Below are positions 193 through 39,442 of a DNA stretch of 39,868 bases, piece by piece. A program made the translations under genes and the position numbers. Within the stretch, counting starts at the first letter, position 1; each line of letters starts with the position of its first letter. The DNA lies in assembly GCA_017617335.1 (NCBI GenBank), contig JAFZWK010000025.1, positions 1 through 39,868 on the forward strand. Direction: 5' to 3'. Below the pieces are notes generated by a model. That model worked only from the letters and a program-made list of their open reading frames with translations. It was not told where the DNA came from and did no database searches. The DNA is from Bacteroidaceae bacterium (GTDB lineage: Bacteria > Bacteroidota > Bacteroidia > Bacteroidales > Bacteroidaceae).

Positions 193-224
193 CAACACGT
201 TGAAACCGTAAAGTCAACACGTTG
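193..224 (-). repeat. 22-bp-period array, two copies of CAACGTGTTG (read on the minus strand)
   Basis: CAACACGTTG occupies 193-202 and 215-224, exactly 22 bases apart start to start. On the minus strand each copy reads CAACGTGTTG; the first is followed by ACTTTACGGTTT and the second by ACCTCCTCACAG. The array lies 47 bases past the stop codon of the NagB-like gene, in the sense orientation of that gene. It belongs to the same family as the arrays at 14516-14569 and 39389-39442. Confidence 0.8.
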
Positions 225-270
225 AGTTTGCCGACTCCGCATGCAAGCGACTCTTTACTTCCCTCTTGCC

Positions 271-2268
271 CTACAATGGCTTATACTCCACGAATGCCTC
301 CATGGCCTCGTAGCATGCCAAGCCCAGGCTGTCGTAGAGCTTTGCCGTAGCACGGTTGCGGTCCTCGGAACGCTGCCAGAAGAGGCGGGTATCGTTGCCC
401 AGGAAGGGAGCGGACTCCATCTGTGAGCTATGCTTGAGGATAGAATTACGCTTGGCTCGCAGTTCCTCGGGAGACATGGGCACGCACATCTCGATGTTCT
501 CGATCTCCCATTCAGCCCAGGCGCCGCGATACATCCAGATGCGGCATTCCTGAAGCCACTTGGCTGCATCCTGCTTTTCCAGATCGATGGCAGCCAGGAC
601 TGCATCCGTACACTTGCGGTGGGTGCCATGAGGATCGGCCAAATCACCTGCCACAAATATTTCGTGAGGCTGGACCTTCTTCAACAGGTCGCGGACAATC
701 TCCACGTCTTTCTCCGTCATGGGAAGTTTCTCTATCGTTCCACTCTCGTAGAAGGGCAGATCCAGGAAGTAGACACGGTCGAGAGGTATATCGTTGTAGG
801 TGCAAGCCGTGCGAGCCTCACCACGACGAATCAATCCCTTCAGGGTACGCACCTCCTGAATGTCGATATCGCCTTCCTTTTTCTTCTTGAAGAACTCCCT
901 GATCTCGTTGTATATTTGGGTGATCTTCTCGTTCTTGCTGTCCATGAATATCTGGTTGAATCCGTTCACGAAGTGCATGAAGCGTGTCACCTCCTCATCG
1001 TTCACGGCAATGTTGCCTGAAGTCTCGTAAGCGACGTGCACCTCGTGCCCCTGCTTCACCAGACGCTGGATGGTTCCTCCCATAGAAATGACATCATCAT
1101 CAGGATGTGGCGAGAAGACGAGGACACGCTTGGGGTAGGGTTTTGCACGCTCAGGCCGATAGGTGTCATCGGCATCGGGCTTGCCACCTGGCCAACCTGT
1201 GATGGTGTGCTGAAGGTCGTTGAATATCTTGATGTTGCAGTCGTAGGCGGAGCCATAGTGAGCCAGGAGTTCCGAGAGTCCGTTCTCGTTGTAGTCCTTG
1301 TTGGTCAACTTCAGCAGGGGTTTCTTGGTGATTCCACAGAGCCAAACCAAAGCGGCACGGGTCAACTTATCATCCCACTTGCAGCTGGTGACCAGCCAAG
1401 GATGAATGATGCGGGTGAGCTTGCTGGCTGATGCCAAGTCAAGCACCACGTTCGCGTCGTTGTGTGCCTGGAGGAAACTGGCTGGCTTAGCGTCCGTAAT
1501 GGCTCCCTCGACAGTATCCTTGATGATGCTGGCCTTCTCTTCGCCCCAAGCGGTCAGGAAGATCTTGCGGGCAGAAAGGATGTTGGAGATTCCCAACGTG
1601 ATGGAACAGGGTGGCACAGCTTCCTGTCCGCCGAAACTCATTGTCATCTCCTCGCGTGAGATGGCATCGATCAGCATCAGACGAGTACGGGTATTGATGG
1701 TGGAACCAGGCTCGTTGGTGGCGATATTGCCTACGCGACCGATACCCAACAGGATGATATCCAATCCGCCAAAGGTGGCGATACGCTCATCGTAGAGACG
1801 GCATTGGGCCTGCACATCTTCCTGGGGAATGGAGCCATCCATCGAGTAGATGTTCTGTTCTGGAATATCTATCTTGTCGAGGAAATACTCTCTCAACTGA
1901 TGCAAGCTGCTGATCTTGCTGCCTGGCTTCAGAGGAAAGTACTCGTAGGCATTGAAAACAACCACGTTCCTGAAGCTCAACTTCTTGGTCTTGTGGCGAT
2001 GAATCAACTCATCATAAACGGGCACCAAACTTTGACCTGTACCCAAACCCAACACACAGTATTTACCCAACTTATGCTTGTCTCTTATTTCTGACTCTAT
2101 AGCGTCAGCAATAGCAGCCGCTCCTTCTTCCACCTTGGGATAGATATCGGTGCGAACCTTCTCGAAACGTGTAATCTCGCTGCGGTCAACAGCAGTCTTC
2201 GGTGCATAAAACTCTTCTGGTACCTTGTTCAGTACAATCTGGGAACTCAAATTTAAATTCAGACTCAT
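271..2268 (-). CDS. NagB-like / LmbE-like (PIG-L deacetylase) fusion protein
   Basis: The 665-residue protein has a glucosamine-6-phosphate isomerase (NagB) fold at about residues 15-350 and an LmbE/PIG-L-type zinc deacetylase domain at about 380-665. The second carries SPHPDDD at 386-392, the usual metal-binding signature. The NagB half keeps the NEP glutamate (186) in GIGRVGNIATNEP. The positions of E. coli NagB Asp141 and His143 appear here as Val and Asn, and the Asp72 region reads NAYEY, so classical deaminase chemistry is doubtful. The family is usually annotated glucosamine-6-phosphate deaminase; a role in amino-sugar metabolism is inferred. The start was set at 2268 because homologues begin near this Met and a -7 promoter element lies at 2340-2347, downstream of the longer possible start at 2421. 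The protein has no signal peptide and is probably cytoplasmic. Confidence 0.85.
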   Translation of the reverse strand: MSLNLNLSSQIVLNKVPEEFYAPKTAVDRSEITRFEKVRTDIYPKVEEGAAAIADAIESEIRDKHKLGKYCVLGLGTGQSLVPVYDELIHRHKTKKLSFRNVVVFNAYEYFPLKPGSKISSLHQLREYFLDKIDIPEQNIYSMDGSIPQEDVQAQCRLYDERIATFGGLDIILLGIGRVGNIATNEPGSTINTRTRLMLIDAISREEMTMSFGGQEAVPPCSITLGISNILSARKIFLTAWGEEKASIIKDTVEGAITDAKPASFLQAHNDANVVLDLASASKLTRIIHPWLVTSCKWDDKLTRAALVWLCGITKKPLLKLTNKDYNENGLSELLAHYGSAYDCNIKIFNDLQHTITGWPGGKPDADDTYRPERAKPYPKRVLVFSPHPDDDVISMGGTIQRLVKQGHEVHVAYETSGNIAVNDEEVTRFMHFVNGFNQIFMDSKNEKITQIYNEIREFFKKKKEGDIDIQEVRTLKGLIRRGEARTACTYNDIPLDRVYFLDLPFYESGTIEKLPMTEKDVEIVRDLLKKVQPHEIFVAGDLADPHGTHRKCTDAVLAAIDLEKQDAAKWLQECRIWMYRGAWAEWEIENIEMCVPMSPEELRAKRNSILKHSSQMESAPFLGNDTRLFWQRSEDRNRATAKLYDSLGLACYEAMEAFVEYKPL

Positions 2269-2339
2269 ATTCTTTGTGTTTTTTTTACTTTCCTTTTCTT
2301 CACCACCTCCAGGAAACCGCAGATGATGCATTTTCTTTG

Positions 2340-2347
2340 CAAAGTTA
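2340..2347 (-). promoter_or_regulatory. Bacteroidetes -7 element upstream of the NagB-like gene
   Basis: The minus strand reads TAACTTTG here, matching TAnnTTTG, about 70 bases before the ATG at 2268. No clear TTTG -33 element was found at the usual 19-21 base spacing. It is divergent from the element at 2454-2461. Confidence 0.55.
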
Positions 2348-2453
2348 CAATCTTTCCTTTCATTTTTGTTATCTTCCTCCCCAAATTCTTCCTTAAAATT
2401 TCTTAAAGAAATTCTTGGCATGGTTTTCCCATTAATTTCTCAATGTTTTTTCG

Positions 2454-2461
2454 TAACTTTG
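2454..2461 (+). promoter_or_regulatory. Bacteroidetes -7 element upstream of the GH51 gene
   Basis: TAACTTTG matches TAnnTTTG and lies about 70 bases before the ATG at 2532. The -33 region is not a good match. Together with the minus-strand element at 2340-2347 it makes this gap a divergent promoter region. Confidence 0.55.
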
Positions 2462-2531
2462 CAAAACACTTTGCAAGCAAAACCATCAAGAACAAAAAGT
2501 CTCTAAGAAAAGTCATTTATACCCAAGGAAC

Positions 2532-4466
2532 ATGAAAAAACTGGTTCTCTTTTTAGGCCTTATTCATCTATTGTCTGTACAAGCACAAAAGATAGACTTC
2601 CGTGTGGCGGAGGAATACTCGCCCTATATCTTCGGTTACAATCTGGAACATACACGTTCTGCCATAAACGGCGGCTTGAGTGCACAAATGCTAAAGAACC
2701 GCAAATTTGCAGGCAAACCCCAAGCCAACTTGGGTCTTGCTGCACATTGGTTCCCCATTGGAGAAAGAACCTTTTATCTGAAGAGCGACAGAGATGCCTA
2801 CACCAAACACATCTGCCTGGCCAATATGTACCGCAGGAATGAAATCGGCGTTCAAGTCATTCAGAACCTGACCGAAGGAAAGACTGCTGGAATGGGACAG
2901 CACGAATTGGGTCTGAAAGCAGGCAAAACGTATGAACTGCGCATGGTGACTCGTGTAAACAAACCCATCCATCTGAAGGTGGAATTCACCAATCACTCAG
3001 GGAATCGCACCTATGCCAGCCACACCCTGTCGCTTGCTCCCACACAAGATTGGGAAATCGACGAATTCACCCTAACCCCTTCGGCTGACGATGCGGTGGC
3101 CGATATCCGCTATACGTTCACAGAACAGGCAGAACTCGCGATTGGCGCCCTGTCCGTGATGCCACAAGACAATTTCCATGGGATGAGGCGTGATGTGGTG
3201 GAGAACCTGAAGCAGATAGGGCCACGTCTTATCCGCTGGCCAGGAGGCAACTTCGCAGGAGAATACCGTTGGAAGGACGGCTTGCTTCCAGCGGATCAAC
3301 GCGCTCCCCTGCAAGCCTATACTGAAATTGAAACCCAACCTCACAGCGATGGTTACGACTATCACGAAATCAATACTGACGATTTCATCGCCCTATGTCG
3401 CGAAGTGGGTGCTGAACCATTGCTTACTATCAATCTGGCATGGAACACTCCGAAAGAGAGTGCCCAATGGGTGGAGTACTGCAACGGGACTGCCGAAACA
3501 GAATACGGAAAGATGAGAGCCGAGCGCGGTCACCCAGAGCCTTACAACGTGCGTTTCTGGTCATTGGGCAACGAGATGGGATATGGACACATGGAAGGAC
3601 CTAATACTCCTGAACGCTATAACGAGTTCGCCCAGCGCCATACCGATGCCATGCTTAGGGTTACGCCAGACTTGGAACTCTTTGCCTCAGGACCTTATCC
3701 CAACGATGACTGGGCAAAGAAATCGGCAGCCATGATGGCCGACAAGGTGAAAAACATCTCCCTGCACGGCTATTTCGGTCCCACCTCTTATCATGGAGGC
3801 AGGCTGCACTACACGACTCCTGAGGAGACGGAAGCCACCTACCACGCCATCGTGGAATCAGCCCTCAGTGCTGGAAACCATGTCCGCAACATGCGCCGTT
3901 GCTTGGATGCCACAGGGAAGAAGCTGCACATCAGTTTCGACGAGTGGAATCAATGGTATGCATGGTACCGCCCCTCCTGTGTCAGCGAAGGCATCTTTAC
4001 TGCCAGGATGATGCACTTCTTCCTCAATCATACAAATGAGATGGACATGCCCGTTGTCTGCTACTTCCAACCAATTGGCGAGGGAGCAATCATCATAGAC
4101 CGTCTGGAAAGTCGACTGACAGCTAACGGCCAGATATTCTCGCTGATGAGGAATCATCAGAATGGAAAAATCTGCAAGGTAAGTGAGAATGACGATCTAT
4201 CCACTGCCGCAACCCTTCAGGACAACGTGCTCACCATCACTCTTATCAACGAAAAATATGACGAGGAACGCGTCTTCCGTTTTCCTATAAATATAAGGAG
4301 TAGTGTCATAGATGCTGTGCTTTATTCCTCGAATGACGTTCGACCCTACAGCTATTTCAACGAATCTCCTCTCCAAGTGAAGAACGACAAGAAAATTTTA
4401 AGCACCATACTTCCTCCACACAGCGTGGCACTGATACGCCTGAACCTAAACATAAAGAAGAAATAA
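2532..4466 (+). CDS. GH51-type alpha-L-arabinofuranosidase, exported
   Basis: The protein has 644 residues. A Sec signal peptide covers about residues 1-18 (cleavage near VQA-Q). It is followed by an N-terminal beta-sandwich region and a TIM-barrel with RWPGGNFAGEY (235-245), SLGNEMGYG with the likely acid/base Glu348, and ISFDEWNQWY with the likely nucleophile Glu471. A beta-sandwich C-terminal domain, as in alpha-L-arabinofuranosidases, closes the protein. GH51 enzymes release terminal alpha-L-arabinofuranose from arabinan, arabinoxylan or arabinogalactan; export suggests periplasmic action. The start fits the signal peptide. The DUF1080 lipoprotein gene follows after 164 bases. Exact substrate cannot be read from sequence. 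Confidence 0.9.
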   Translation: MKKLVLFLGLIHLLSVQAQKIDFRVAEEYSPYIFGYNLEHTRSAINGGLSAQMLKNRKFAGKPQANLGLAAHWFPIGERTFYLKSDRDAYTKHICLANMYRRNEIGVQVIQNLTEGKTAGMGQHELGLKAGKTYELRMVTRVNKPIHLKVEFTNHSGNRTYASHTLSLAPTQDWEIDEFTLTPSADDAVADIRYTFTEQAELAIGALSVMPQDNFHGMRRDVVENLKQIGPRLIRWPGGNFAGEYRWKDGLLPADQRAPLQAYTEIETQPHSDGYDYHEINTDDFIALCREVGAEPLLTINLAWNTPKESAQWVEYCNGTAETEYGKMRAERGHPEPYNVRFWSLGNEMGYGHMEGPNTPERYNEFAQRHTDAMLRVTPDLELFASGPYPNDDWAKKSAAMMADKVKNISLHGYFGPTSYHGGRLHYTTPEETEATYHAIVESALSAGNHVRNMRRCLDATGKKLHISFDEWNQWYAWYRPSCVSEGIFTARMMHFFLNHTNEMDMPVVCYFQPIGEGAIIIDRLESRLTANGQIFSLMRNHQNGKICKVSENDDLSTAATLQDNVLTITLINEKYDEERVFRFPINIRSSVIDAVLYSSNDVRPYSYFNESPLQVKNDKKILSTILPPHSVALIRLNLNIKKK

Positions 4467-4529
4467 GTAATCGAGATATGAGGTAAACAACGAGAAAAGA
4501 TGGCTATCAAGGTAAAAAGGGAGGAAAAT

Positions 4530-4561
4530 TTTGTTTAAATGAAAAGTTTTGCTTTTCTTTG
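4530..4561 (+). promoter_or_regulatory. Possible promoter of the DUF1080 gene
   Basis: TTTG at 4530-4533 is followed after 20 bases by TTTCTTTG at 4554-4561. The -33 and spacing fit the Bacteroidetes pattern, but the -7 has TT instead of TA, so this is a weak call. The ATG is at 4631. Confidence 0.3.
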
Positions 4562-4630
4562 CAAAGCGAAAGAAACATGAAAAAAGTAAAATAAAGGGCA
4601 TTTATCATAAACAAAAATCAATGTAAAGCG

Positions 4631-5920
4631 ATGAAAAAGACAAATCTGATGCTGCTGACTGCAGCAACAATAAGCGGAATGCTTTGCTCTTGTCAGCCCA
4701 AAGACAACACGTTGACAAAGGCTGAAGAACAAGAAGGATGGGAACTGCTGTTCAACGGACAGGATCTATCCGAGTGGCGCAATTACAACGATACCATCCT
4801 ATCCAATGGATGGACGGCCGTGAACGGTTGCATCCAAGCAAGTGGCGAGGGTGCCGATGAATCTGGCTATATCGTTACAAAGCGCAAGTTTGCTGACTTC
4901 GAACTCTCTTGGGATTGGAAATTGACACACGGCGGCAACAGTGGTATGCTGTATCACGTGGTGGAAAGTCCCGTCTTCAGTGTTCCCTATGTAACTGGCC
5001 CTGAATATCAGCTTATCGACAACGAAGGATGGGAAGAAGTGAATGCTCCTGAGAAACTTGAAGAGTGGCAGAAGTTGGGAGTAGATTATGCCATGCACCT
5101 GCCCGACTATTCCAAGATGCACGTCAATCCTGTGGGCGAGTGGAACAACTCACGAATTATCTTTGACAATGGTCATGTGGAACACTGGCTCAACGGTGAG
5201 AAGATTCTGGAGTTTGAAGCTTGGACAGATGACTGGTTTGAGAAGAAGGGTAGCGGCAAATGGGCTCATGCTCCCGAATACGGTCTTTCCAGCGAAGGCG
5301 TCATCTGCCTGCAAGATCATGGCGATCCCGCATCTTTCAAGAACATCAAGATTCGGCCACTACCCCATAAAGGCGGCCAGACAGAGAGCCTCTTTAATGG
5401 TAAGGACCTCACTGGCTGGGAACCTTTCGGCGATGGCAAGTGGAGCGTAGACGAGGAAGGCAATCTGGTGACCGAGAATGGAGACAACAAACAATATGGT
5501 TATCTTTGCACCCGCAAGTATTACAAGGACTTCGACCTCACTTTAGAGTTCAAACAGGAGTCCAACGGCAACAGCGGTCTCTTTTTCCACTCTTTCATCG
5601 AGGGTTTCAACACCGTTCATGGATGGCAATGTGAGGTGGCTCCCAAGGGCAATGATACAGGTGGTATCTACGAATCCTACGGACGTGGCTGGCTCCAGCA
5701 GATTCCTGACGAAAAGGAGGAAATCTTAAAAGAAGGCGAATGGAATACTCTTCGCCTGCGCGTAGAAGGCAATCATATCCAGACCTGGCTCAATGGTGAA
5801 CCCATGGCTGATCTGGAAGACGAACTCATTGGCAAAACTCCAGGTCGCCTGATGCTGCAAATCCACGATGGAAATGACATCAAAGTCCTTTGGAGGAATT
5901 TCCAACTGACGCAACTCTAA
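4631..5920 (+). CDS. Lipoprotein with two DUF1080 (3-keto-disaccharide hydrolase-type) domains
   Basis: The 429-residue protein starts with a lipoprotein signal whose lipobox ends at Cys21 (MLCSC). Two concanavalin-like DUF1080 domains follow, each opening with the same motif: ELLFNGQDLSEW near residue 38 and ESLFNGKDLTGW near residue 254. Both contain the NGNSG/GGNSG and L-N-G motifs usual for the family. DUF1080 proteins are found with sugar 3-dehydrogenases and act on 3-keto-glycosides in some Bacteroides; no such dehydrogenase lies in this window. Location is probably the periplasmic face of a membrane. The domain pair looks like an internal duplication. Substrate is unknown; its position after GH51 suggests a plant glycan role. 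Confidence 0.85.
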   Translation: MKKTNLMLLTAATISGMLCSCQPKDNTLTKAEEQEGWELLFNGQDLSEWRNYNDTILSNGWTAVNGCIQASGEGADESGYIVTKRKFADFELSWDWKLTHGGNSGMLYHVVESPVFSVPYVTGPEYQLIDNEGWEEVNAPEKLEEWQKLGVDYAMHLPDYSKMHVNPVGEWNNSRIIFDNGHVEHWLNGEKILEFEAWTDDWFEKKGSGKWAHAPEYGLSSEGVICLQDHGDPASFKNIKIRPLPHKGGQTESLFNGKDLTGWEPFGDGKWSVDEEGNLVTENGDNKQYGYLCTRKYYKDFDLTLEFKQESNGNSGLFFHSFIEGFNTVHGWQCEVAPKGNDTGGIYESYGRGWLQQIPDEKEEILKEGEWNTLRLRVEGNHIQTWLNGEPMADLEDELIGKTPGRLMLQIHDGNDIKVLWRNFQLTQL

Positions 5921-5941
5921 TCGTCTAAAACTCTGAAAAAT

Positions 5942-5990
5942 AAAAAAAGCAGGACTTCACTGTTTGAGGTGGGGTCCTGCTCCTTTTTTG
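5942..5990. terminator. Bidirectional intrinsic terminator
   Basis: The stem AGCAGGAC (5948-5955) pairs with GTCCTGCT (5974-5981) and can extend inward through CAC/GTG. It is flanked by an A run on the left and TTTTTT at 5984-5989 on the right. It sits between the convergent DUF1080 and RNase R genes and could serve both. Confidence 0.8.
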
Positions 5991-6001
5991 TTCAAAGGCG
6001 A

Positions 6002-8215: not shown

Positions 8216-8244
8216 ATTTTCTGGTTTTTGATGGTTTCTTTGGT

Positions 8245-8252
8245 CAAAAATA
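8245..8252 (-). promoter_or_regulatory. Possible -7 element for rnr
   Basis: On the minus strand 8252 to 8245 reads TATTTTTG, a TAnnTTTG match about 30 bases before the ATG at 8215. No good -33 element was seen. A moderate call only. Confidence 0.4.
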
Positions 8253-8304: not shown

Positions 8305-8334
8305 TACACATTAACAAATAAATGCTACGCAAAG

Positions 8335-12400: not shown

Positions 12401-13057
12401 GAAGGCCATCTCCGCATCCGTATGCGAAGTGGAGAATCACGCTTCCTGCTGACTCAAACATCTGCTGCTGAGAACGTTATTCCGTCATCCTCTGCCCTGA
12501 GTTTTGATTCGCTTGATGCCAAATTCTCTGATTGGAAACTCCATTTCATCCAGAGCCAACCTGTTGTTGCGGACACATTCCATCTCGAGGGTCCTCAAAC
12601 GTGGGAAAGCTTGGGAAAACATCTGGACTTAGATCAGAACCTGACAGACAGCTTGAGCGAACTGATGGGCACGGGTGTCTATGAATGTACTCTCGCCCTT
12701 CCAGACAACGTCTCGCCCACAGATGAATACCAGATGGACTTGGGAGACGTGCGCGAATCTGCCCGTCTTTACGTTAACGGACACTACGTGGGATGTGCTT
12801 GGTGCGTGCCGTTTTCTCTGCGATTCCAGGGACTTCTCCATGCTGGAAACAATCATTTGCGCATCGAGGTCACCAACCTGCCAGCCAATCGCATTGCCGC
12901 CTACGACAGAAAAGGCATTAAGTGGCGTAAGTTCAACGACATCAATGTAGTGGATCTTCAGTACAAGAAGACGACCTACGAGAAATGGGAACCTGTCCCT
13001 TCAGGTCTTAATTCCCCTGTCCATCTCTATCGCCAGCATCATCCTCTTAATCCTTGA
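9416..13057 (+). CDS. GH105/GH88-type unsaturated glycuronyl hydrolase fused to a GH106-type alpha-L-rhamnosidase
   Basis: The protein has 1213 residues with a signal peptide ending near AAAQ20. Residues about 25-375 form an (alpha/alpha)6-barrel of the GH88/GH105 type, with WIDAIQMGMP (146-155, probable catalytic Asp148) and WSRGNGW (217-223). The sequence then passes with almost no linker into a GH106-like rhamnosidase from QPGVRWWWLG (381-390), including GTGWPFGGP near 459 and the later SSETFTW and HGACYSP motifs. The C-terminal ~110 residues look like a galactose-binding-type beta-sandwich. The first domain would remove unsaturated uronic acid after lyase cleavage and the second alpha-L-rhamnose, a logical pair for rhamnogalacturonan or arabinogalactan. 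Start at 9416 fits the signal peptide. A read-through of two formerly separate genes is a possible origin. Confidence 0.88.
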   Translation: MKKIIFCLLFILTSLHAAAQTPDEILETTQRVNNYFMTRCPDPTKATFVKRERPSSLWTRGVYYEGLMSLQSIDPQQRYLDYVDQWADFHQWTPRNGITTLNADDQCCAQTYLERYLTTGNEKMIQHVQENLQHQMSEGRVDHWDWIDAIQMGMPVYSHMFMATRDERYMKYALNSYLWTRNTCGDHGLWNPSEGFWWRDANFDPPYKESDGQNCYWSRGNGWVYAALVRVLNDLHDMGIDFTSPDSPYFIFYQDFLRMSEALLTCQREDGFWNVSLLSPTTYGGPETSGTSLFLYGFAWGILQGILPTEKYRSAADHAWKAISGVVHANGSLGYVQGTGKEPKDGQPVTADKIPDFEDYGAGCFLLAATEYYRLIQHIAQPGVRWWWLGSAVTYEGITWQMQQMASHGVGALEITPLYGVQGNDENNIDFLSPQWMRMLRYTIREGKRLGIQIDMNLGTGWPFGGPTTPIEEAACKLVIVDSIMDSHIAKKVKLEAPERERKYAKRILQQRFKTTERGKTRVIALFESRTRQQVKRAAPGGEGYVMDHFDSTAVAHYLQRFEDAFAEAERTDGPENLWPATFFNDSYEVYQADWTSTLLLEFEKRRGYRLQDKLKEFVDGDPAVVSDYRETLSDLLLQNFTQQWVRWCHRHGVKVRNQAHGSPANLIDVYAAVDIPEIEGFGYSELGIKGLRQDSGMTRKNQSDLTMLKYASSSAHITGKQLTSSETFTWLTEHFRTSLSQMKPDMDLMFCAGVNRMFFHGACYSPQDDPWPGWRFYASIDMSPTNTIWRDAPYLMKYIERCQERLQKGKPDNDFLVLLPIRNMWRTNSQHRLMQFEIGNMYQKSPEFVQSILRIDSLGFDCDYISESYLLGTTYCKGQLQTDAGTRYAALILPDNCILTPEVKAHVEALRSQGAPIIQGIDAERMNAVARPEEIRSKLGLKMIRRSNLDGTYTYFISNLTPHDISDEVNLASEAKGGTWYDPLTDASSPAEFSEGHLRIRMRSGESRFLLTQTSAAENVIPSSSALSFDSLDAKFSDWKLHFIQSQPVVADTFHLEGPQTWESLGKHLDLDQNLTDSLSELMGTGVYECTLALPDNVSPTDEYQMDLGDVRESARLYVNGHYVGCAWCVPFSLRFQGLLHAGNNHLRIEVTNLPANRIAAYDRKGIKWRKFNDINVVDLQYKKTTYEKWEPVPSGLNSPVHLYRQHHPLNP

Positions 13058-13084
13058 CACTATAACACCTAAACATATACTGAC

Positions 13085-14317
13085 ATGAAAAAGAATTATG
13101 CAACCCTCGTTATGGCAGGACTTTTCCTGATGAATTTGCCTGCCCAAGCCCAAGAGGCAAACTACGATGAGTCTAATGTAGGTACTTATACTTTACCTGA
13201 TGCACTGACCTCTCTCAATGGCCAACAAGTTATTAAGAAGAAAACATGGGAGAAGATACGCCGCCCAGAAATTCTGAAACTTTTTCAGGACAACGAATAT
13301 GGCATTCTACCCAATGCAAAAATCAAAACAAACTATCGCATCATAGAAGAAAGTGACAATGCTCTCGAGGGAAAAGCTATCCGTCGTCAGGTGGAGATTA
13401 CTTTTAGCGGCAACAATCAGACCCGCAAGATGCTTGTTCTGCTTTATATGCCAAAGGGAGTGAAGAAATGCCCAGTTTTCGTGGCACCCAACTTCCAAGG
13501 GAATGCCACCACTACAATAGACCCAGCCGTCATCGAATCACAATTCAGCACTTACGAACGGGCTCATCAAACCAGTCGCTGGTCCTATGATCGTATCATC
13601 AACTCTGGCTATGCTGTAGCTACTTTCCACTACTACGACATCTATTTCGATGCGAATGGCAAACTCGCAGAAACCATCTATCCGCTCTTTGGCATCACTT
13701 CTGATGATGACCTGCAGGACAATACAGGCAAAGCCATCACCGCTTGGGCATGGGGATGTTCTCGCGTGCTGGATTACCTGCTCACCTTAAAGAACATCGA
13801 CAAGAAGCGCACCATTGTCATGGGTCATTCACGTTTGGGAAAGACGTCTCTCTGGTGCGGAGCTCAAGACCAACGTTTCGCTATGGTCATCTCCAACAAT
13901 TCAGGTTGCTCTGGCGCAGCCTTGTCTCGTCGCAACTATGGAGAGACTGTGCCGCGCATCAACAAATCCTTCCCCTGGTGGTTCTGCAACAAATACCAAT
14001 CATACAACCAGAACGTCCCTTCGCTTCCCATGGATCAGCACGAGTTGCTTGCCCTCATAGCTCCACGTCCCGTCTACGTAGCCAGCGCCCAAGAGGACAG
14101 GTGGGCAGACCCTCGCGGAGAGTTTCTTTCTTTGCAGGAAGCAAGCAAAGTTTATGCGCTCTATGGTTACGACACCCTGCAAGGCTACTCCTTCCCAGCC
14201 CCCAACGAACATCTTTGGAAGGGCAATTGCGGCTATCACATGCGCACTGGAGTACACGATGTCACAGACTTCGATTGGCAGTCATACATCGAGTTTGCTG
14301 ACAGACATCTGAAGTGA
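13085..14317 (+). CDS. CE15-type glucuronoyl esterase, exported
   Basis: The 410-residue protein carries a signal peptide (cleavage near AQAQ23) and an alpha/beta-hydrolase domain of the carbohydrate esterase 15 type. The nucleophile is Ser249 in GHSRLGK, followed by the family's NNSGCSGAALSRR-GET segment (271-288) and a C-terminal GYHMRTGVHD motif (383-392) that holds the likely catalytic His. CE15 enzymes cleave esters of 4-O-methyl-glucuronic acid that link xylan to lignin alcohols; some bacterial members have other uronate-ester substrates. The gene starts 27 bases after the GH105-GH106 gene, so it is probably the last gene of that operon. The rhamnose/uronate context hints that it may act on pectin- or arabinogalactan-linked uronates, which is inference. 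Confidence 0.88.
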   Translation: MKKNYATLVMAGLFLMNLPAQAQEANYDESNVGTYTLPDALTSLNGQQVIKKKTWEKIRRPEILKLFQDNEYGILPNAKIKTNYRIIEESDNALEGKAIRRQVEITFSGNNQTRKMLVLLYMPKGVKKCPVFVAPNFQGNATTTIDPAVIESQFSTYERAHQTSRWSYDRIINSGYAVATFHYYDIYFDANGKLAETIYPLFGITSDDDLQDNTGKAITAWAWGCSRVLDYLLTLKNIDKKRTIVMGHSRLGKTSLWCGAQDQRFAMVISNNSGCSGAALSRRNYGETVPRINKSFPWWFCNKYQSYNQNVPSLPMDQHELLALIAPRPVYVASAQEDRWADPRGEFLSLQEASKVYALYGYDTLQGYSFPAPNEHLWKGNCGYHMRTGVHDVTDFDWQSYIEFADRHLK

Positions 14318-14371
14318 AGGAACTTGCGAACTCATTGATTGTCAGGATTTCGGAAACCTGAGCCATACCTA

Positions 14372-14409
14372 TGTCTTGGTTTCAGTAATGTCCTCTGTCT
14401 TGGTTCCAG
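14372..14409. repeat. Direct repeat TGTCTTGGTTTCAG / TGTCTTGGTTCCAG
   Basis: Two 14-base copies (14372-14385 and 14396-14409) differ at one position and are 24 bases apart start to start. They lie about 55 bases past the CE15 stop codon. Function unknown. Confidence 0.6.
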
Positions 14410-14515
14410 CCTTCGAGGGCATAGTTGCAACCATACGATTCACTACCTTTTCTATTTACCTTTCAATCAGTCAGTTGATCAATATTTCAATCATTTCTTC
14501 ACCTTGCGCTCAGGG

Positions 14516-14569
14516 CAACGTGTTGTCTTTGAGATTTCAACGTGTTGTCTTCCTCTTTCTAACACGTTG
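14516..14569 (+). repeat. 22-bp-period array, three copies of CAACGTGTTG-type cores
   Basis: Cores are CAACGTGTTG at 14516-14525 and 14538-14547, and TAACACGTTG (inverted centre, one mismatch) at 14560-14569. Start-to-start distances are exactly 22 and 22. The second spacer, TCTTCCTCTTTC, matches the bases after the last core of the right array (ACTTCCTCTTTC) at 11 of 12 positions, so the arrays share spacer sequence as well as the core. It lies about 200 bases past the CE15 stop codon, in the sense direction of that gene, and is convergent with fur. Confidence 0.8.
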
Positions 14570-14767
14570 CAAAGGTACGAACAACTGATGGCCTGCTGGT
14601 GTGGTATGGTATGATTTTTTTTGTTTGGGCATGATATAGCATGTATTGCAAGGGTCAGCATGCGCACCTTCAGCCGCTGACTAAATCAGAATATCCCTAC
14701 TGGCTGAACTGGGAGTGATGCCCACCACCAAACTTGTCCCTCTTATGTCTGCCTAATGGATCTGCGG

Positions 14768-15229
14768 TTAATATGAGATAGATGAGTGACACTCTGGGCA
14801 GAGACCTTTGATCATGTAATTGATTGTTTGGACGATGAAACCTGCGGGGAGGGTGATTTGGGGAACTTTTGTGTCATGAAGACAGAAGGTGCGTTGGCAA
14901 TGCTCGCAATAGAAATGGGTGTGCTGATCCTCGAGAGTACATTCATCGTGTCCACAGCAAAGCTCGTACTTGAGGGCTCCACTGCCATCTTCGATGGCAT
15001 GAACGAGATGGTGATGGAGCAAGAGGGTAAGAACGCGGAAAATGGTACTCTTGTCCACCGTGAGAAGTCGATCCTCGAGATCCTTGATAGAATAAGGGCG
15101 ACGGGCACGAGCCAACTCACGGAATACAAGCAGGCGCGATGAGGTGGGTTTCACCCCATGGGAAGCAAGACGCGCTTCAGGGTTTCCGATAAACTCGTCT
15201 ATCTCATTGATAAGGACGTGAGGCGACAT
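14768..15229 (-). CDS. Fur-family transcriptional repressor
   Basis: The 153-residue protein has the Fur layout: an N-terminal winged helix (about 20-90, recognition helix near KSTIFRVL at 60-67) and a C-terminal metal-binding dimerisation domain with QHTHFYC (102-108), two CxxC pairs (108/111 and 144/147, a structural zinc site) and the conserved LHD. The family senses Fe, Zn, Mn or peroxide; the sequence does not decide which. The ATG lies seven bases after the nucleoside-kinase stop codon, so both are probably co-transcribed. The protein ends soon after the second CxxC. Confidence 0.9.
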   Translation of the reverse strand: MSPHVLINEIDEFIGNPEARLASHGVKPTSSRLLVFRELARARRPYSIKDLEDRLLTVDKSTIFRVLTLLLHHHLVHAIEDGSGALKYELCCGHDECTLEDQHTHFYCEHCQRTFCLHDTKVPQITLPAGFIVQTINYMIKGLCPECHSSISY

Positions 15230-32001: not shown

Positions 32002-32028
32002 ATCACACATAAAAGATAACAAAGAGCA

Positions 32029-33297: not shown

Positions 33298-34260
33298 TTG
33301 CTGAATGTTGTGAGGCACAACCGATTCCAAAATCATATTTCCGAGAGTATCTTTACACTGCCTTTCTGTGCAGTGACGGCTACTGTTTTATGGTGGTGGC
33401 CATTGGGTAGATTTAATATCGACTATGCTTTGGGATGGATTCTTTCTGCCTTGTGTACCTACATCATTTTAGAGACCAATAACAGCAATTTCCTTATTCG
33501 AATCCGTACTCGCATGGTGTCATGTGTATGGTTGGTTATTATTACTTCGCTTGGATTCCTTCATCCCATCAGTAATGCTTCTATTGCTGCTTTTTGTTTA
33601 GTGGTGAGTCTTTTCCTTCTTTTCAAAACTTACCAACAAAGACAAACTGTAGGATGGGTCTTCCACAGTTTCCTTTTTCTGGGGTTGGGAAGTTTGGTCT
33701 TTCCGCAGATGCTTGTTTTATCATTTTTTCATTACTGGTATTTGATTGTCTTGCTGCGAGCCATCAGTTGGCGCAGTTTCTTTGCTGGCATCATTGGTCT
33801 CTTACTTCCTTATTGGTTCTGGGCAGCTTTCTGTGCACTGACAGACAATTTCAGTCCGATAATTACTCATATTTTAAGGATTACTGAGTGGCATCCTATC
33901 GCCATAGAAAATTATCTTTATCTTCCTCAATCTTGGATAGCTTCATGGGCGGTTATAACAATAACAAGTATAGTAGGAGGATTACACTTCTTAGTTACCT
34001 ATTATAATGATAATATAAAGCAGCGTATGCTACTGTATATCTATGTTTTTCAAACAATACTAATCCAAGTTTTCTTGTTGCTGCAACCCCAGTTCTTTCA
34101 GACTTTGGTAGCTTTGTTGGCCGTTTGTGCCAGTCCACTCATCGCTCATTTTTTCGCTCTGACAAACACCCGGTTCAGCAATCTATTCTTTTGTTTCACA
34201 CTCCTTTTATTCATCGGGTTGACTGTGTGGAATCTGTGGATGCCAACATTCGTTTTCTGA
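33298..34260 (+). CDS. Multi-pass membrane protein of unknown function
   Basis: Not recognised by function. The 320-residue protein has about ten or eleven hydrophobic segments separated by short loops, with one longer basic loop near IRIRTRM (about residues 67-73). It resembles an uncharacterised integral membrane family found beside purD in Bacteroidales. The frame opens with TTG at 33298, directly after the purD stop; a GTG at 33310 is the other possible start, and no ATG lies near, so the exact start is uncertain. The abutting position implies translation coupled to purD. Confidence 0.7.
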   Translation: MLNVVRHNRFQNHISESIFTLPFCAVTATVLWWWPLGRFNIDYALGWILSALCTYIILETNNSNFLIRIRTRMVSCVWLVIITSLGFLHPISNASIAAFCLVVSLFLLFKTYQQRQTVGWVFHSFLFLGLGSLVFPQMLVLSFFHYWYLIVLLRAISWRSFFAGIIGLLLPYWFWAAFCALTDNFSPIITHILRITEWHPIAIENYLYLPQSWIASWAVITITSIVGGLHFLVTYYNDNIKQRMLLYIYVFQTILIQVFLLLQPQFFQTLVALLAVCASPLIAHFFALTNTRFSNLFFCFTLLLFIGLTVWNLWMPTFVF

Positions 34261-34376
34261 TGATCATTAGCTTCTTTCCTTGGAAAAGCAATGCTTTACA
34301 ATCCTGTTTTGTGTCTCTAAAGGGTACATTAACGAAAAATAAGACATCATAGACAAGGAATTAAACAAATATTGAG

Positions 34377-34384
34377 TAACTTTG
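34377..34384 (+). promoter_or_regulatory. -7 element for the DUF2723 operon
   Basis: TAACTTTG matches TAnnTTTG, 44 bases before the ATG at 34429. It lies inside the upstream in-frame extension to 34372, which argues that the extension is not translated. Confidence 0.5.
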
Positions 34385-34428
34385 CAAAATCATTTAAAAA
34401 AATCAACAAGAAGAAACAAAATAAAGCA

Positions 34429-37400
34429 ATGAAACAATTTAGATTAATAGACAACCTGATGGGTTGGATAACATTTGCTATAGCAGCTTTCGTGTATTGT
34501 AGCACGATTGAGCCATCGGCAAGTTTCTGGGATTGTCCAGAGTTTATTACCACCGCCTACAAGTTGGAGGTGGGTCATCCTCCTGGGGCACCCTTTTTCA
34601 TGCTGACTGCCAATCTGTTTACCCAATTCGTCAATGACCCCACCAAAGTGGCAATGATGGTCAACACGATGAGTGCTCTCTTTAGCGCTGCCTGCATCAT
34701 GTTCCTTTTTTGGACTATCAGCCATTTGACGCGTCGATTGGTTGGTGAGAATAACCAAGTGAAGACATTTGGACAACTTGTTACGGTTGAGGCTTGTGCT
34801 CTGGTCGGTGCGCTGATCTACACTTTCAGTGACACTTTCTGGTACAGTGCTGTTGAGGGAGAGGTTTATGCCTACAGTAGTCTTTTTACTGCTATTGTCT
34901 TTTGGTTGATGCTGAAATGGGAAGATCATGCCGATGATCCTCATTCTGACCGTTGGCTGATTCTGATAGCTTATCTGACAGGCCTTAGCATCGGAGTGCA
35001 TTTGCTCAATCTTCTTTGTCTGCCAGCCCTTGTACTTATCTATTATTATCGTAAATATCCGAATGCCAACGTAAAAGGCTCTCTGATTGCTCTGTTAGGT
35101 AGTTTTGTGTTGGTAGCTGCAGTCTTGTATGGTATCGTTCCTGGTATCGTGAAGGTGGGCGGATGGTTTGAGCTCTTCTTCGTCAACACTCTGAACTGTC
35201 CTTTCAATACGGGTCTCATCGTTTACTTGCTGCTATTGATTGGTATCGTTCTATGGTCAATTCGCGAGACGATGATTGAGAAGAGTCGGATTCGCATGAA
35301 TATTTCTTATCTGCTGAGCATTGGTATGTTGGGTATCCCCTTCTATGGTCATGGTATCAGTAGCATTGTCATTGGTGTCATTATCTTGGCTCTGCTCTAT
35401 ATGTTGTTACGTTGGGATACAGTTAAAGGCAAACTCATTTCTGCACGTCTGATGAACACCAGTTTGCTCTGCATGCTGATGATCATGATTGGCTACAGTT
35501 CCTATGCCGTCATTGTGATTCGCAGTACTGCCAATACTCCTATGGATCAAAACAGCCCAGAGGACATATTTACCTTGGGAACCTATTTGAGCCGAGAACA
35601 GTATGGAGACCGTCCTTTGTTTTATGGGCAGGCATACACCAGCAAGGTAAAACTGAAAGTGGAGGGCCAGTATTGTGTGCCCGTCAGCAAGAAAGGCGCT
35701 CCTGTTTATCAACGTAAAGAGAAGGCTAAAGCCGATGAACCTGACCGCTACGAAATACAACGCTATGATCAGGACTACATCTACGGACAGAACATGCTAT
35801 TCCCTCGCATGTACAGCGAGGCTCATTCCAATGCTTATGAGAGTTGGATGGGTGGCGTGAAGGGTCACAACATTACCACAGACCACTGTGGTGAGATGAT
35901 TACCGTCAAGACGCCCACCATGTTCGAGAATATCCGTTTCTTCCTCAGTTACCAAGTCAACTTCATGTACTGGCGCTATTTCATGTGGAATTATGCTGGA
36001 CGTCAGAATGATATTCAAGGCAATGGTGAGTGGGAACATGGGAATTGGATATCTGGTATACCTTTCTTCGACAACTTCCGTTTGGGTAACCAGGACAGAC
36101 TTCCTCTCGAATTGCGTGAAAACAAGGGACATAATGTTTATTATTGCCTACCTTTGCTTCTTGGCCTGCTTGGCTTCTTCTGGCAACTCTTCCGCAACAA
36201 CGAGAAGAACAACAATGCTGGTGAGAAACAATTTTGGGTTGTTTTCTTCCTGTTCTTTATGACAGGTCTGGCCATTGTAGTTTACCTTAACCAGACACCT
36301 ATGCAACCACGCGAGCGTGATTACGCCTACGCAGGTTCTTTCTATGCTTTTGCCATCTGGTGCGGTATGGGTGTGGCAGGTATCGCAGAATTGATTCGTC
36401 GAGTACTGAAAAACGAGAACTTGAGTGCTGTTATCAGTTGCATAGCTATTCTGATTCCCTTGCAAATGGCAGCACAGAATTGGGATGATCATGACCGCAG
36501 CGGACGCTACACGTGTCGTGATTTTGGTCAGAACTACCTGATGTCACTTGATGAGACTCGTCATCCTATCATCTTTACCAATGGCGATAACGACACTTTC
36601 CCCTTGTGGTATGCTCAAGAGACAGAAGGCTTCCGTACTGATGCTCGTGTCTGCAACCTTTCTTACCTGCAGACCGATTGGTATATCGACCAGATGAAAC
36701 GTCCTGCCTATGACAGTCCGTCTGTACCCATCCACTGGAGTCGCTTGCAGTATGTAGCAGGTACTCGTGAAGGAATCTCCGTGCGTCCTGGTACTTTGGA
36801 GCAAGCCATAAACTACTATAAGGATGATCCTCTTACCATGCATCAGCTCCTGGGTGACAATCCCTACGAACTGCACAATATCATCGACAAATGGATACTC
36901 AATGATAATCCTGATTTGCAGATTTTCCCCACCGATAGTATTGTGCTGACAGTGGACAAGGAAGCCGTTCGTCGTAGTGGTATGATGATTGCTGGCGATA
37001 GCATTCCTGATGTAATGCACATTAGCCTGAAGGGTAAACGTGCTGTCTATAAGAGCGAGATGATGATGTTGGAAATGTTGGCTCAATGCAATTGGGAACG
37101 TCCCATGTACGTAGCTATCACAGTGGGCAAGGACAATTATGGCGGGTTGGGTGACAACTTCGTTCTCGAAGGTTTGGTTAACCGCATTACGCCCTTCAAC
37201 ACCAAGGCTAACGGCAAGAACATCGATACGGAGAAGATGTACGACAACCTGATGCACAAGTTCAAGTTTGGTGGCCTCGACAATCCTGACATCTATCTTG
37301 ATGAAACGGTGCTTCGCATGTGTTGGACCCATCGTCGTATGTTCTCCCAATTAGCCACTCGTCTCGTCGAGGAAGGCCAGATGGAAAAAGCTGCCAAGGT

Positions 37401-37833
37401 AGTAGAGTACGTTGAGAAGGTGATTCCTTCTACCACTGTTCCTCACAACTATTCAAGCGGTTCTATGGATCTGGCGCGTATTTGGGTTAAGTTGAACAAA
37501 GTTGATCAGGTTGAAAAAATCCTTCAACCCATTGCCCAGAATGCTTGTGACTATATGTCGTGGTATCTCAGCCTACCCAGCAGGATGTTGATTCAGGAGG
37601 ATGAGGACATCATGTACTACATGTACCAACTCCACAACTGCATAGATTTGTTGCAAGAGACCAAGAGCAATTATGCCTTGGAATATGCGATGAAGCTTGA
37701 TTTGTACAACCGCGAAGTACAAAAGCGCCTCTATGGTTCCGCTGGAATGGCTCTTCCTGAAAACGAAAGCCAGACAGAGGAGGATTGGTTGCCTGAGTTG
37801 GATGCACTCGACACCGCTGCAGCCGAAGAATGA
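34429..37833 (+). CDS. DUF2723 GT-C-like membrane protein (predicted glycosyltransferase)
   Basis: The 1134-residue protein has about a dozen hydrophobic segments in its first ~650 residues and a large soluble C-terminal part (about 660-1134). The first extramembrane loop holds SFWDCPEF (32-39), with acidic Asp35/Glu38 like the catalytic acids of GT-C enzymes, followed by GHPPGAPFF. Late motifs include QPRERDYAYAGSFYAF and NGDNDTFPLWY. The family (DUF2723, protein O-mannosyltransferase-like) is near-universal in Bacteroidetes and of unproven function; a lipid-linked sugar transfer role is inference. The C-terminal region has helical repeat character (about 955-1115). The NodB deacetylase overlaps its stop by four bases. 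ATG chosen at 34429 over a TTG at 34372. Confidence 0.85.
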   Translation: MKQFRLIDNLMGWITFAIAAFVYCSTIEPSASFWDCPEFITTAYKLEVGHPPGAPFFMLTANLFTQFVNDPTKVAMMVNTMSALFSAACIMFLFWTISHLTRRLVGENNQVKTFGQLVTVEACALVGALIYTFSDTFWYSAVEGEVYAYSSLFTAIVFWLMLKWEDHADDPHSDRWLILIAYLTGLSIGVHLLNLLCLPALVLIYYYRKYPNANVKGSLIALLGSFVLVAAVLYGIVPGIVKVGGWFELFFVNTLNCPFNTGLIVYLLLLIGIVLWSIRETMIEKSRIRMNISYLLSIGMLGIPFYGHGISSIVIGVIILALLYMLLRWDTVKGKLISARLMNTSLLCMLMIMIGYSSYAVIVIRSTANTPMDQNSPEDIFTLGTYLSREQYGDRPLFYGQAYTSKVKLKVEGQYCVPVSKKGAPVYQRKEKAKADEPDRYEIQRYDQDYIYGQNMLFPRMYSEAHSNAYESWMGGVKGHNITTDHCGEMITVKTPTMFENIRFFLSYQVNFMYWRYFMWNYAGRQNDIQGNGEWEHGNWISGIPFFDNFRLGNQDRLPLELRENKGHNVYYCLPLLLGLLGFFWQLFRNNEKNNNAGEKQFWVVFFLFFMTGLAIVVYLNQTPMQPRERDYAYAGSFYAFAIWCGMGVAGIAELIRRVLKNENLSAVISCIAILIPLQMAAQNWDDHDRSGRYTCRDFGQNYLMSLDETRHPIIFTNGDNDTFPLWYAQETEGFRTDARVCNLSYLQTDWYIDQMKRPAYDSPSVPIHWSRLQYVAGTREGISVRPGTLEQAINYYKDDPLTMHQLLGDNPYELHNIIDKWILNDNPDLQIFPTDSIVLTVDKEAVRRSGMMIAGDSIPDVMHISLKGKRAVYKSEMMMLEMLAQCNWERPMYVAITVGKDNYGGLGDNFVLEGLVNRITPFNTKANGKNIDTEKMYDNLMHKFKFGGLDNPDIYLDETVLRMCWTHRRMFSQLATRLVEEGQMEKAAKVVEYVEKVIPSTTVPHNYSSGSMDLARIWVKLNKVDQVEKILQPIAQNACDYMSWYLSLPSRMLIQEDEDIMYYMYQLHNCIDLLQETKSNYALEYAMKLDLYNREVQKRLYGSAGMALPENESQTEEDWLPELDALDTAAAEE

Positions 37834-38447
37834 TCATCGAGCAGCCCACCAAATTTCTCCGTTGGCTGTATCCTCATGCCTTGTGGAGAATGGATCATCA
37901 GGAGAAAGTCGTCTATTTGACCTTTGATGATGGCCCTCTTCCTGAGGCCACACCGTTCATACTGGATGTGTTGGATCGCTACAATGCCAAGGCTACTTTC
38001 TTCATGGTGGGTGACAACGCCGAGAAATATCCTCATCTGCTCAAGGAAGTCCGTAGTCGTGGTCATCGTATCGGCAACCATACCCATAATCATGTGAGAG
38101 GTATGAGTATGAGTGTATGGAAATATTTGGCCAATGTAAAAAAAGCCGAGGAAATCCTGCATACAGACCATCTTTTCCGTCCCCCTCACGGATGGATGGG
38201 ACTTGTGAAATACCGCACCATGCGATATTTGGGTTGGCGTATCGTCATGTGGGACGTGGTCACCCGTGACTACAGTAGGCGTCTGCAAGCCGAAGATGTG
38301 CTCAACAATGTGAAACGTTACACTCGGCCTGGCAGCATCATCACTTTCCATGACTCGCTCAAGAGTATCGACAAGTTGAAGAGTGCCCTTCCAAAGGCCA
38401 TGCAATGGTTATGTGAACAAGGTTATGAGTTCCGCACTTTTGAATAG
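37830..38447 (+). CDS. Polysaccharide deacetylase (NodB/CE4 family)
   Basis: The 205-residue protein is a compact NodB domain: TFDDGP (31-36) with metal-binding Asp34, HTHNH (84-88) giving the HxxxH metal pair, RPPHG (117-121), WDVVTRD (141-147) and FHDS (173-176). CE4 enzymes remove N- or O-acetyl groups from sugars such as chitin oligomers, peptidoglycan or xylan. No signal peptide is present, so it may act on a cytoplasmic or inner-leaflet lipid-linked substrate. The ATGA overlap with the DUF2723 gene suggests translational coupling and a shared pathway. Confidence 0.9.
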   Translation: MIIEQPTKFLRWLYPHALWRMDHQEKVVYLTFDDGPLPEATPFILDVLDRYNAKATFFMVGDNAEKYPHLLKEVRSRGHRIGNHTHNHVRGMSMSVWKYLANVKKAEEILHTDHLFRPPHGWMGLVKYRTMRYLGWRIVMWDVVTRDYSRRLQAEDVLNNVKRYTRPGSIITFHDSLKSIDKLKSALPKAMQWLCEQGYEFRTFE

Positions 38448-39327
38448 ACAATCAGTGAAAGCCGAGGCCCTCCGCCTTGGCTTTTCTGCGTGTGGATTGG
38501 CTCCAGCGGAAGCTGTCCAGGAACCTTATGCCAGCAGGTTTCTTCAGTGGATTCAGAAAGGCTGCCAAGCCAACATGAGCTATATGGAGAATCATATCCA
38601 GATGCGGCTCGATCCGCGTCTGTTGGTACCTGGCGTCAAGACCATCATCAGCGTTGCCCTCAATTATTATCCTTCCAAGCAGGCTTCCGGACTCAGCATG
38701 TATGCTCAGGGACAGGACTATCATGAGGTGGTTCGAGAACGGCTGCATCAACTGCTGGAAGCATTGAATGTCGAGGGGCGATGCTTTGTGGACACTGCAC
38801 CTGTTCTGGAACGCTATTGGGCATGGCGAGCAGGATTGGGATGGATGGGACGAAACACCTTGTTGATTCTGCCTCATCACGGCAGCACATATTTCTTGGG
38901 AGAACTTTTCGTGATGGCCGAAGCTGACAGTTATGACACTCCCCTGGCCCGCTCCTGTGGCGATTGTCATCGATGTATCGAGGCATGTCCTATGGGAGCC
39001 ATCAGCGAAACGGGCATAGATGCACGCCGATGTATCAGTTATCTCACCATCGAGAATCGTGGACCCTTGCCCCAGGAACTAACCCTGGAGGATTGTTTCT
39101 ATGGTTGTGACCGCTGCCAGCAAGCCTGTCCCCATCTGCAACACGCCATTCCCACGTCAGAAGAGGCATTTCTTCCCAGTAAGGAAATTTTGGAGATGAG
39201 TCCCTCCGAGTGGAAGAATCTCACTCTCGAACAATACCAGCATCTTTTCAAAGGATCTGCTGTGAAAAGAGCAAAATTCGACGGGTTGAAACGCAATATT
39301 GAGGCTTGCAAGTTCCATCCAGAATAG
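38425..39327 (+). CDS. queG: Epoxyqueuosine reductase
   Basis: The 300-residue protein has the QueG layout: a cobalamin-binding N-terminal domain with catalytic-type Asp123 in FVDTAP and WAWRAGLGWMGRN (132-144), then a double [4Fe-4S] ferredoxin domain with CGDCHRCIEACP (178-189) and CFYGCDRCQQACP (224-236). It reduces epoxyqueuosine to queuosine in tRNA. The extra C-terminal HEAT-like domain of some homologues is absent. The ATG at 38425 overlaps the deacetylase gene by 23 bases; a TTG at 38440 would give a length nearer homologues, so the start is not certain. Confidence 0.93.
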   Translation: MSSALLNRQSVKAEALRLGFSACGLAPAEAVQEPYASRFLQWIQKGCQANMSYMENHIQMRLDPRLLVPGVKTIISVALNYYPSKQASGLSMYAQGQDYHEVVRERLHQLLEALNVEGRCFVDTAPVLERYWAWRAGLGWMGRNTLLILPHHGSTYFLGELFVMAEADSYDTPLARSCGDCHRCIEACPMGAISETGIDARRCISYLTIENRGPLPQELTLEDCFYGCDRCQQACPHLQHAIPTSEEAFLPSKEILEMSPSEWKNLTLEQYQHLFKGSAVKRAKFDGLKRNIEACKFHPE

Positions 39328-39388
39328 CTTTCTGGCTCTTTTGCCTGCGCTTTAAACATTTTCAGCTAAGGAAAAGAAAAGAAAAAGA

Positions 39389-39442
39389 CAACGTGTTGAC
39401 TCCTGACTTTCAACGTGTTGTGTTTGTGGTTTCAACGTGTTG
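39389..39442 (+). repeat. 22-bp-period array, three perfect copies of CAACGTGTTG
   Basis: Cores lie at 39389-39398, 39411-39420 and 39433-39442, exactly 22 bases apart. Spacers are ACTCCTGACTTT and TGTTTGTGGTTT; the last core is followed by ACTTCCTCTTTC. The array is 62 bases past the queG stop codon, in the gene's sense orientation. Same family as 193-224 and 14516-14569. Confidence 0.85.

Follow-up and report, generated by a model that had tools for sequence, protein, structure and literature searches.

Palindrome arrays with a fixed 22-bp period in a Bacteroidaceae genome are candidate operator sites of HU-HIG proteins

Introduction

Iterons, parS/ParB and operator arrays of the MetJ or Arc type consist of tandem sites in phase, which are bound by a DNA-binding protein that is dimeric or cooperative. 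Each of these systems occupies few loci, and their cores are not known to change between species while the spacing is kept. Here we analyzed arrays that resemble them in form, in which a short palindromic core recurs every 22 bp, starting from a stretch of DNA of 39,868 nucleotides from a Bacteroidaceae bacterium (assembly GCA_017617335.1, contig JAFZWK010000025.1; hereafter the window). The arrays are dispersed through the genome of the window, and arrays with the same period are enriched in the leaders of genes for HU-HIG proteins, an HU/IHF-like family of predicted DNA-binding proteins with many copies in this bacterial family. We consider it probable, with moderate confidence, that the arrays are clustered operator sites to which HU-HIG proteins would bind.

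A 2017 paper reportedly deals with the clades of the HU/IHF superfamily, and we know of no role for the large HU-HIG family. Nothing like the arrays was found in open-licence papers, as far as their available parts go, and the available part of a Bacteroides thetaiotaomicron transcriptome paper has nothing on such arrays. The same partial sources gave no target sites for the HU-HIG family; one paper on a Bacteroides strain has the term "HU-HIG domain" once.

Results

Three arrays in the window

Re-reading the window recovered the eight cores of the original prediction at their positions, with every start-to-start step equal to 22 bp and one core carrying one mismatch. The cores and the features that accompany them are as follows.

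Left array, 193..224, minus strand: two exact cores 22 bp apart at 193 and 215 (CAACACGTTG).
Middle array, 14516..14569, minus strand: cores at 14516 and 14538 (CAACGTGTTG) and at 14560 (TAACACGTTG, one mismatch); within the leader of a decayed HU-HIG gene.
Promoter-like TAnnTTTG box TACCTTTGC, 14569..14577, minus strand: directly before the first core of the decayed HU-HIG leader.
Remains of the start of a HU-HIG (PF18291) gene, split between two frames, 14322..14446, minus strand: tblastn with an intact HU-HIG protein of the same genome, E 3.8e-5.
Right array, 39389..39442, plus strand: three exact cores at 39389, 39411 and 39433 (CAACGTGTTG).

The pattern CAACRYGTTG, with up to one mismatch, had 18 matches in the window compared with 4.66 +/- 2.18 in shuffled sequence. 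On the minus strand, positions 14326-14609 aligned (71%, E 1.6e-37) with a stretch of contig C32 that comprises the promoter, the leader and the start of a HU-HIG gene. We conclude that the middle array lies in a minus-strand HU-HIG leader whose gene has decayed. The TAnnTTTG box of this leader, a candidate promoter element, recurs in the same or a similar form before the leader arrays of other HU-HIG genes. Because a minus-strand FUR-family ORF lies at 14768-15229, the gap that holds the middle array is convergent, not tandem as the gene caller had it. The spacers TCTTCCTCTTTC and ACTTCCTCTTTC, reported originally as shared, match spacers of HU-HIG leaders, which are also resembled by the spacer ACTCCTGACTTT and the flank ACTTCCTCTTTC of the right array.

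Period, core and spacers in the genome of the window

We scanned the genome of the window (G000; 2.37 Mb, 62% complete) for CAACGTGTTG-N12-CAACGTGTTG with up to two mismatches, using the reversed pattern and not shuffled sequence as the control. The two strands gave 149 + 146 matches (295, which are matches and not places, because two cores in mixed orientation score once on each strand) compared with 0 + 0 for the control, so that the family of arrays is real and reaches far beyond the window. Within 424 kb of this genome there were 22 groups of at least two exact cores and 16 single cores. Core-to-core steps below 300 bp were 22 bp in 42 of 43 cases, the remaining one being 66 bp, and cores with one or two mismatches located 11-79 bp from an exact core fell at 22, 44 or 66 bp in 80 of 85 counts.

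Spacers and flanks were profiled in 108 arrays, which are all arrays of this genome and its relatives for which flanks were read. The core alone is strict; the spacers vary under some constraint, and many have GC at their midpoint, 11 bp from the center of the core. Over the 34 bp profiled on each side, 12 positions beyond one degenerate outer unit carry at most 0.13 bit. The spacers are 12 bp long and similar within an array, unlike the unique spacers of protospacer length in CRISPR arrays. Inner neighboring spacers are direct repeats, with 7.51 of 12 positions identical compared with 5.30 at random, and 20 of 136 neighboring pairs are near-identical. The near-identical pairs would suit neutral minisatellites produced by slippage, an explanation to which we give a negligible probability: slippage would not fix a period of 22 across many genomes with unrelated sequence, where a 22-bp peak in the period distribution was observed, nor would it keep the cores while the spacers change.

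Shared sites and other cores in relatives

The core pair matched in 27 of 139 genomes of the genus (our own included), with more than 25 matches only in G000 (295), G015 (448), G122 (295) and G113 (54). Among 251 genomes of the family 28 matched, several of them with other cores at the same spacing (G343, 77 + 77 matches, control 11 + 5), and among 60 genomes of the phylum matches were confined to our own and one other.

For twelve arrays of two close relatives (RGIG2783 and SRR12081297_bin.84), matching flanks allowed placement in our sequence, and our genome has an array at 11 of these 12 sites, a figure that is favored by the choice of the stretches compared (1.08 of 2.37 Mb, partly picked for arrays) and in which L049 and L103 are one locus of our own. 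The exception, L110, maps to a 2811-bp interval whose cores form no array. Seven shared pairs were of equal size; identity in these was 219/220 in the cores (regardless of strand) compared with 130/180 in the spacers, in a comparison that begins at exact cores and hence favors end units. This difference suggests selection on the core or its concerted change. As far as tested, the spaced cores occur far above the control level and their sites are neither unique to the window nor unconserved, two points on which the original prediction depended.

Repeats and palindrome pairs of relatives also peak at 22 and 44 bp, with different cores, which include:

CACTTAAGTG in G043, GAGCACGCTC in G099, TGCAATTGCA in G086 and GCACCACGTTGCG in G113.
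ATGATATCAT and TCTTATAAGA in G246, and CAACGCGTTG in G278 and G252, where a second palindrome lies halfway.

In 183 kb from ten genus genomes sampled regardless of arrays, we found five palindrome pairs at 22 bp and four at 44 bp, with a mean of 0.45 per distance; 69 bp also had five. Ten family genomes gave a weak excess at 22 bp (2 compared with 0.65), and another family of the class gave none (2 at 22 bp, background 1.22). In G384, of that other family, a four-unit 22-bp array of the AACCTGCTCAGGTT type was seen by eye (L252, 10616), a hint that such arrays may occur more widely. In G305 (L176-L179), several copies of an element have 22-bp-spaced palindromes inside a long inverted repeat, with similar CCCCTCTCACAAGGCCTGTAGAGG-type tails.

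The region 3' of gyrB was read in 28 of 30 genus genomes including our own, L298 and L299 (41% and 37% identity) being dropped because they were taken as not gyrB. A period of 22 stood above shuffles in nine, with eight different cores; G000 and G015 have a common core, and the 22 of G105 reflects a repeat of 11 bp, of which it is a multiple. Other periods were each significant in three genomes at most, the next being 30 in three. In G016 (L291) and G075 (L294), 10-bp-period CCTAGG arrays stand 3' of gyrB, where other genus members carry 22-bp arrays.

22-bp arrays in the leaders of HU-HIG genes

In search of DNA-binding proteins whose copy number is raised where the arrays occur, we turned to PF18291, the HU-HIG clade of the HU/IHF superfamily, and genes linked to arrays match it. 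Fourteen genomes of the family had 3-21 matches each, six genomes of other families of the class had 1-3 and five genomes of other classes had 0-3, and some of these matches are plain HU, because the model also detects ordinary HU (in 9 of 14 control genomes). Two proteins of our genome scored 69.0 (L173) and 68.8 bits (L121) against a Pfam gathering score of 26.2, with an E of 5e-19 for the Pfam match, and three proteins of relatives scored 43.4-79.1 bits. The L173 gene occupies positions 12997-13467 of that locus, on the minus strand. A comparison of our HU-HIG protein with solved structures gave no match at E up to 1. In G000 and G015, contig ends hold several of the HU-HIG matches, as if near-identical copies had broken the assembly.

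HU-HIG leaders of our genome, and one of G015, carry cores of the CAACGTGTTG type, some of them degenerate, after a TAnCTTTGC box. Reading the upstream regions in 15 genomes gave 56 usable leaders, once L316 and L317 (no upstream sequence), L339 (wrong gene side) and L351 (too short) had been dropped; the L343 leader was taken upstream of a protein start in the wrong frame, and the leaders of G016, G027 and G070 are outside the set. A significant 22-bp period was present in 18 of the 56, from 11 genomes, and periods of 10, 20 and 21 bp in 11, 7 and 6. If three leader arrays of 21 bp are also counted, 12 of the 15 genomes have an array in a HU-HIG leader. Other leaders had a 22-bp period in 7 of 214 cases in regions not picked for arrays and in 18 of 275 in regions partly picked for arrays (with 30 instead of 60 shuffles). 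A comparison with all leaders overstates the link because HU-HIG leaders are mostly intergenic. We therefore matched leaders by at least 200 bp of ORF-free upstream sequence, and the period was then found in 17 of 48 HU-HIG leaders compared with 4 of 66 others (Fisher 8e-5), or with 11 of 81 in regions partly picked for arrays (Fisher 0.004). We conclude that the link of 22-bp arrays to HU-HIG leaders holds and is weaker than the raw figures. This link, and the common spacing with different cores between species, go beyond the original prediction.

An operator before a gene is no proof of autoregulation, and the arrays could be operators of another regulator in whose regulon HU-HIG genes are prominent. 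The presence of 22-bp arrays in leaders of other genes (18/275; 11/81 after matching) fits such a regulator, which we nevertheless hold to be quite unlikely. Leaders of HU-HIG paralogues keep the spacing and differ in the palindrome, even inside a single genome (three palindromes in G121, two each in G103 and G091), and different palindromes at one spacing fit the HU-HIG family itself better than one outside regulator.

Leader palindromes dispersed in their own genomes

In 32 whole genomes we looked for pairs of four leader palindromes at 22-bp spacing, with matches taken on both strands and some places thereby counted twice. GAGCACGCTC had 84 matches in G099, 7 in G070 and 2 in G066, and none in the other 29 genomes; GCACCACGCTGCGA had 386 in G113, 1 in G082 and none in 30. 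AAATCCN6GGATTT matched in G091 (29 per strand), G016 (37) and G027 (28), with none in 29, and GGACGTGTCC in G121 (25), G027 (40), G146 (36), G075 (3), G016 (2), G099 (1) and G047 (1), with none in 25. In G146, GGACGTGTCC often occurs with GGACGCGTCC, as it does in the HU-HIG leader of that genome. Reversed patterns, used as controls, matched at most once per strand. Each leader palindrome recurs at 22 bp in its source genome and in one to six of the 31 others. We conclude that the palindrome before a HU-HIG gene is also dispersed through the same genome, and that most other genomes have few copies of it or none.

The main rival to binding by HU-HIG proteins is that leaders scatter and decay. 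HU-HIG genes and their leaders would be a multicopy element, and the arrays would be leader fragments spread by some mobilizer, with no protein that uses the dispersed copies. We regard this as unlikely, though not remote. In its favor, HU-HIG genes are multicopy, with several matches at contig ends as described above; the middle array of the window is a decayed HU-HIG leader; and the spacers of 9 of 108 arrays, two of them in the window, are at least 10/12 identical to a HU-HIG leader spacer. Array density is also highest between convergent genes (see below), as for tolerated insertions. Against it, 99 of the 108 arrays have no spacer like that of a HU-HIG leader, the cores at shared sites have been retained far better than the spacers, and the exact core pair is in no viral contig. 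The RAYT transposase (Y1_Tnp, PF01797) had no match in G000 (62% complete), G015 (97%), or G091, G103, G113 and G305 (100%), and was present in 9 of 22 genomes searched, so that the linkage to RAYT that marks REP/BIME repeats is lacking. Taken together, core retention and the rarity of leader-like spacers speak against leader scatter as the whole story.

As drivers or origins of the arrays, RAYT was rejected because it is missing from several array-rich genomes, and a viral origin because viral contigs had 0 exact pairs of CAACGTGTTG and 0 of CAACGCGTTG. Seven viral stretches fit a peptide pattern of our HU-HIG protein, and none of them was confirmed as a relative.

Placement of the arrays relative to genes

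According to the original prediction, the arrays lie just past a gene's 3' end in the sense direction and might be transcribed 3'-end elements. The left array does sit 46 bases beyond the 3' end of the ORF at 271-2421 (minus strand), and the right array 61 bases beyond a QueG-like ORF at 38383-39327. This placement is not general. With a rough gene caller, and in sequence partly selected for arrays, 41 of 65 arrays of our genome were assigned between two called genes, as 20 tandem, 13 convergent and 8 divergent; of the other 24, four overlap a called gene and 20 are at the end of a stretch or are not flanked by two called genes. Densities per kb were 1.07 in convergent, 0.34 in tandem and 0.28 in divergent gaps. 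The tandem arrays had a 13:7 orientation; their median distance was 71 bp from the 3' end of the upstream gene and 230 bp from the start of the downstream gene. Ten arrays of G015 were six tandem, two convergent, one divergent and one without assignment.

The excess between convergent genes would be expected of transcribed RNA hairpins or bidirectional intrinsic terminators, which we consider very improbable as a general account. Further signs in that direction are the outer spacers, which are A-rich and T-rich and weakly complementary (4.80 compared with 4.21 of 12), terminator-like ends seen by eye in G113, and a T run after the gyrB array of G000 and G015. On the other hand, the 8 arrays among 41 that the rough caller placed between divergent genes show that arrays are not confined to 3' ends as intrinsic terminators are, and the inner spacers are direct repeats whose mirror pairs are less complementary than random (4.02 compared with 4.54 of 12), on which ground a long RNA hairpin was rejected. 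In G113, G011, G026 and G066, the gyrB array stands after a separate terminator-like hairpin (by eye), and an Rfam search of the window gave no match. These observations do not support the 3'-end element as a general rule. Single arrays may also end transcripts, because the gyrB array of G000 and G015 has no such hairpin before it and a T run after it.

Other features of the window

The window opens with 56 bases that are identical to a stretch on contig C11 (L121), the end of which lies about 330 bp upstream of a HU-HIG gene; this stretch is a TGTCAC-type repeat at a contig end. Positions 39535-39630, 3' of the right array, contain short tandem repeats of ATGTTAC (3.3 copies) and AACATGAGT (5.9 copies). 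The ORF at 271-2421 (minus strand) combines a glucosamine-6-phosphate isomerase domain and a PIG-L deacetylase domain.

Discussion

We consider operator arrays for HU-HIG dimers the most economical account, since it would join the symmetric sites, the spacing of about two turns, the presence of arrays in the proteins' own leaders and the dispersal of the leader palindrome. Each unit is a short site of two-fold symmetry, fit for a dimer. Because units are 22 bp apart (21 bp in three HU-HIG leaders), or about two turns of DNA, neighboring dimers could touch, and the helical spacing makes the cooperative array for a DNA-binding, possibly nucleoid, protein that was proposed originally a fair reading, with binding itself predicted. 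In the promoter or leader of a HU-HIG gene, binding would repress or tune that gene, and autoregulation may follow; at the numerous places between transcription units, the protein would serve locally as an architectural factor or a boundary. In evolution, the protein and its palindrome would change together while the spacing stays constant.

More tentatively, and with some doubt on our part, HU-HIG paralogues may be architectural proteins with sequence specificity, and each would have a lattice of its own, made of palindromes spaced at 22 bp across the chromosome, to mark the boundaries of transcription units. Specificity and all sites would then turn over together between species at fixed geometry, as a bacterial system that evolves fast, with one family re-addressing whole genomes.

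Several observations weigh against binding by HU-HIG proteins. A member of a regulon can carry an operator without encoding the binder, and classical HU shows little preference for sequence. Our HU-HIG protein matches the HU-family model PF00216 below cut-off only. The intergenic control shrinks the enrichment (17/48 compared with 11/81), and leaders of paralogues are not independent. No significant 22-bp period was found in 38 of 56 HU-HIG leaders, among them those of near relatives of our own protein (L341 and L310), in any HU-HIG leader read from G150, G384 and G397, or in 19 of 28 gyrB downstream regions. Lastly, in 21 leader arrays the last TAnnTTTG box precedes 11, follows 4 and is missing from 6.

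If HU-HIG proteins do bind these arrays, the members of a large HU-like family become chromosome proteins with specific sites, and sequence alone is enough to read their targets. Close relatives would also show how a DNA-binding family and its sites, many in each genome, change specificity together while the spacing remains fixed.

Among described repeats, as far as the available parts of the papers go, REP/BIME elements with their RAYT transposases (PMC3733652) are like our arrays in being short, palindromic, high-copy, largely intergenic, species-specific and tied to a DNA-binding gene family. The arrays differ from them in their fixed 22-bp period, strict core and free spacer, and RAYT is absent from several array-rich genomes. 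BrickBuilt, a minisatellite MITE (miniature inverted-repeat transposable element) of Porphyromonas gingivalis (PMC4596501), is an intergenic tandem repeat of similar length (23 nt) from the same phylum; it has 19 copies in ATCC 33277, an unrelated unit (AGAYCATARTATCCTCTCRTRTG) and IS5-like terminal inverted repeats, and our arrays, unlike BrickBuilt, have variable spacers of 12 bp. Because unit and ends differ, the P. gingivalis repeats were rejected as an explanation. The TAACTGA direct repeats of Beggiatoaceae (PMC4679880) are alike in forming small sets (169), mostly intergenic, that were proposed as binding sites of a regulator. In these partial accounts, BrickBuilt, REP/RAYT and TAACTGA repeats have single traits in common with our arrays, and not a fixed spacing with changing palindromes.

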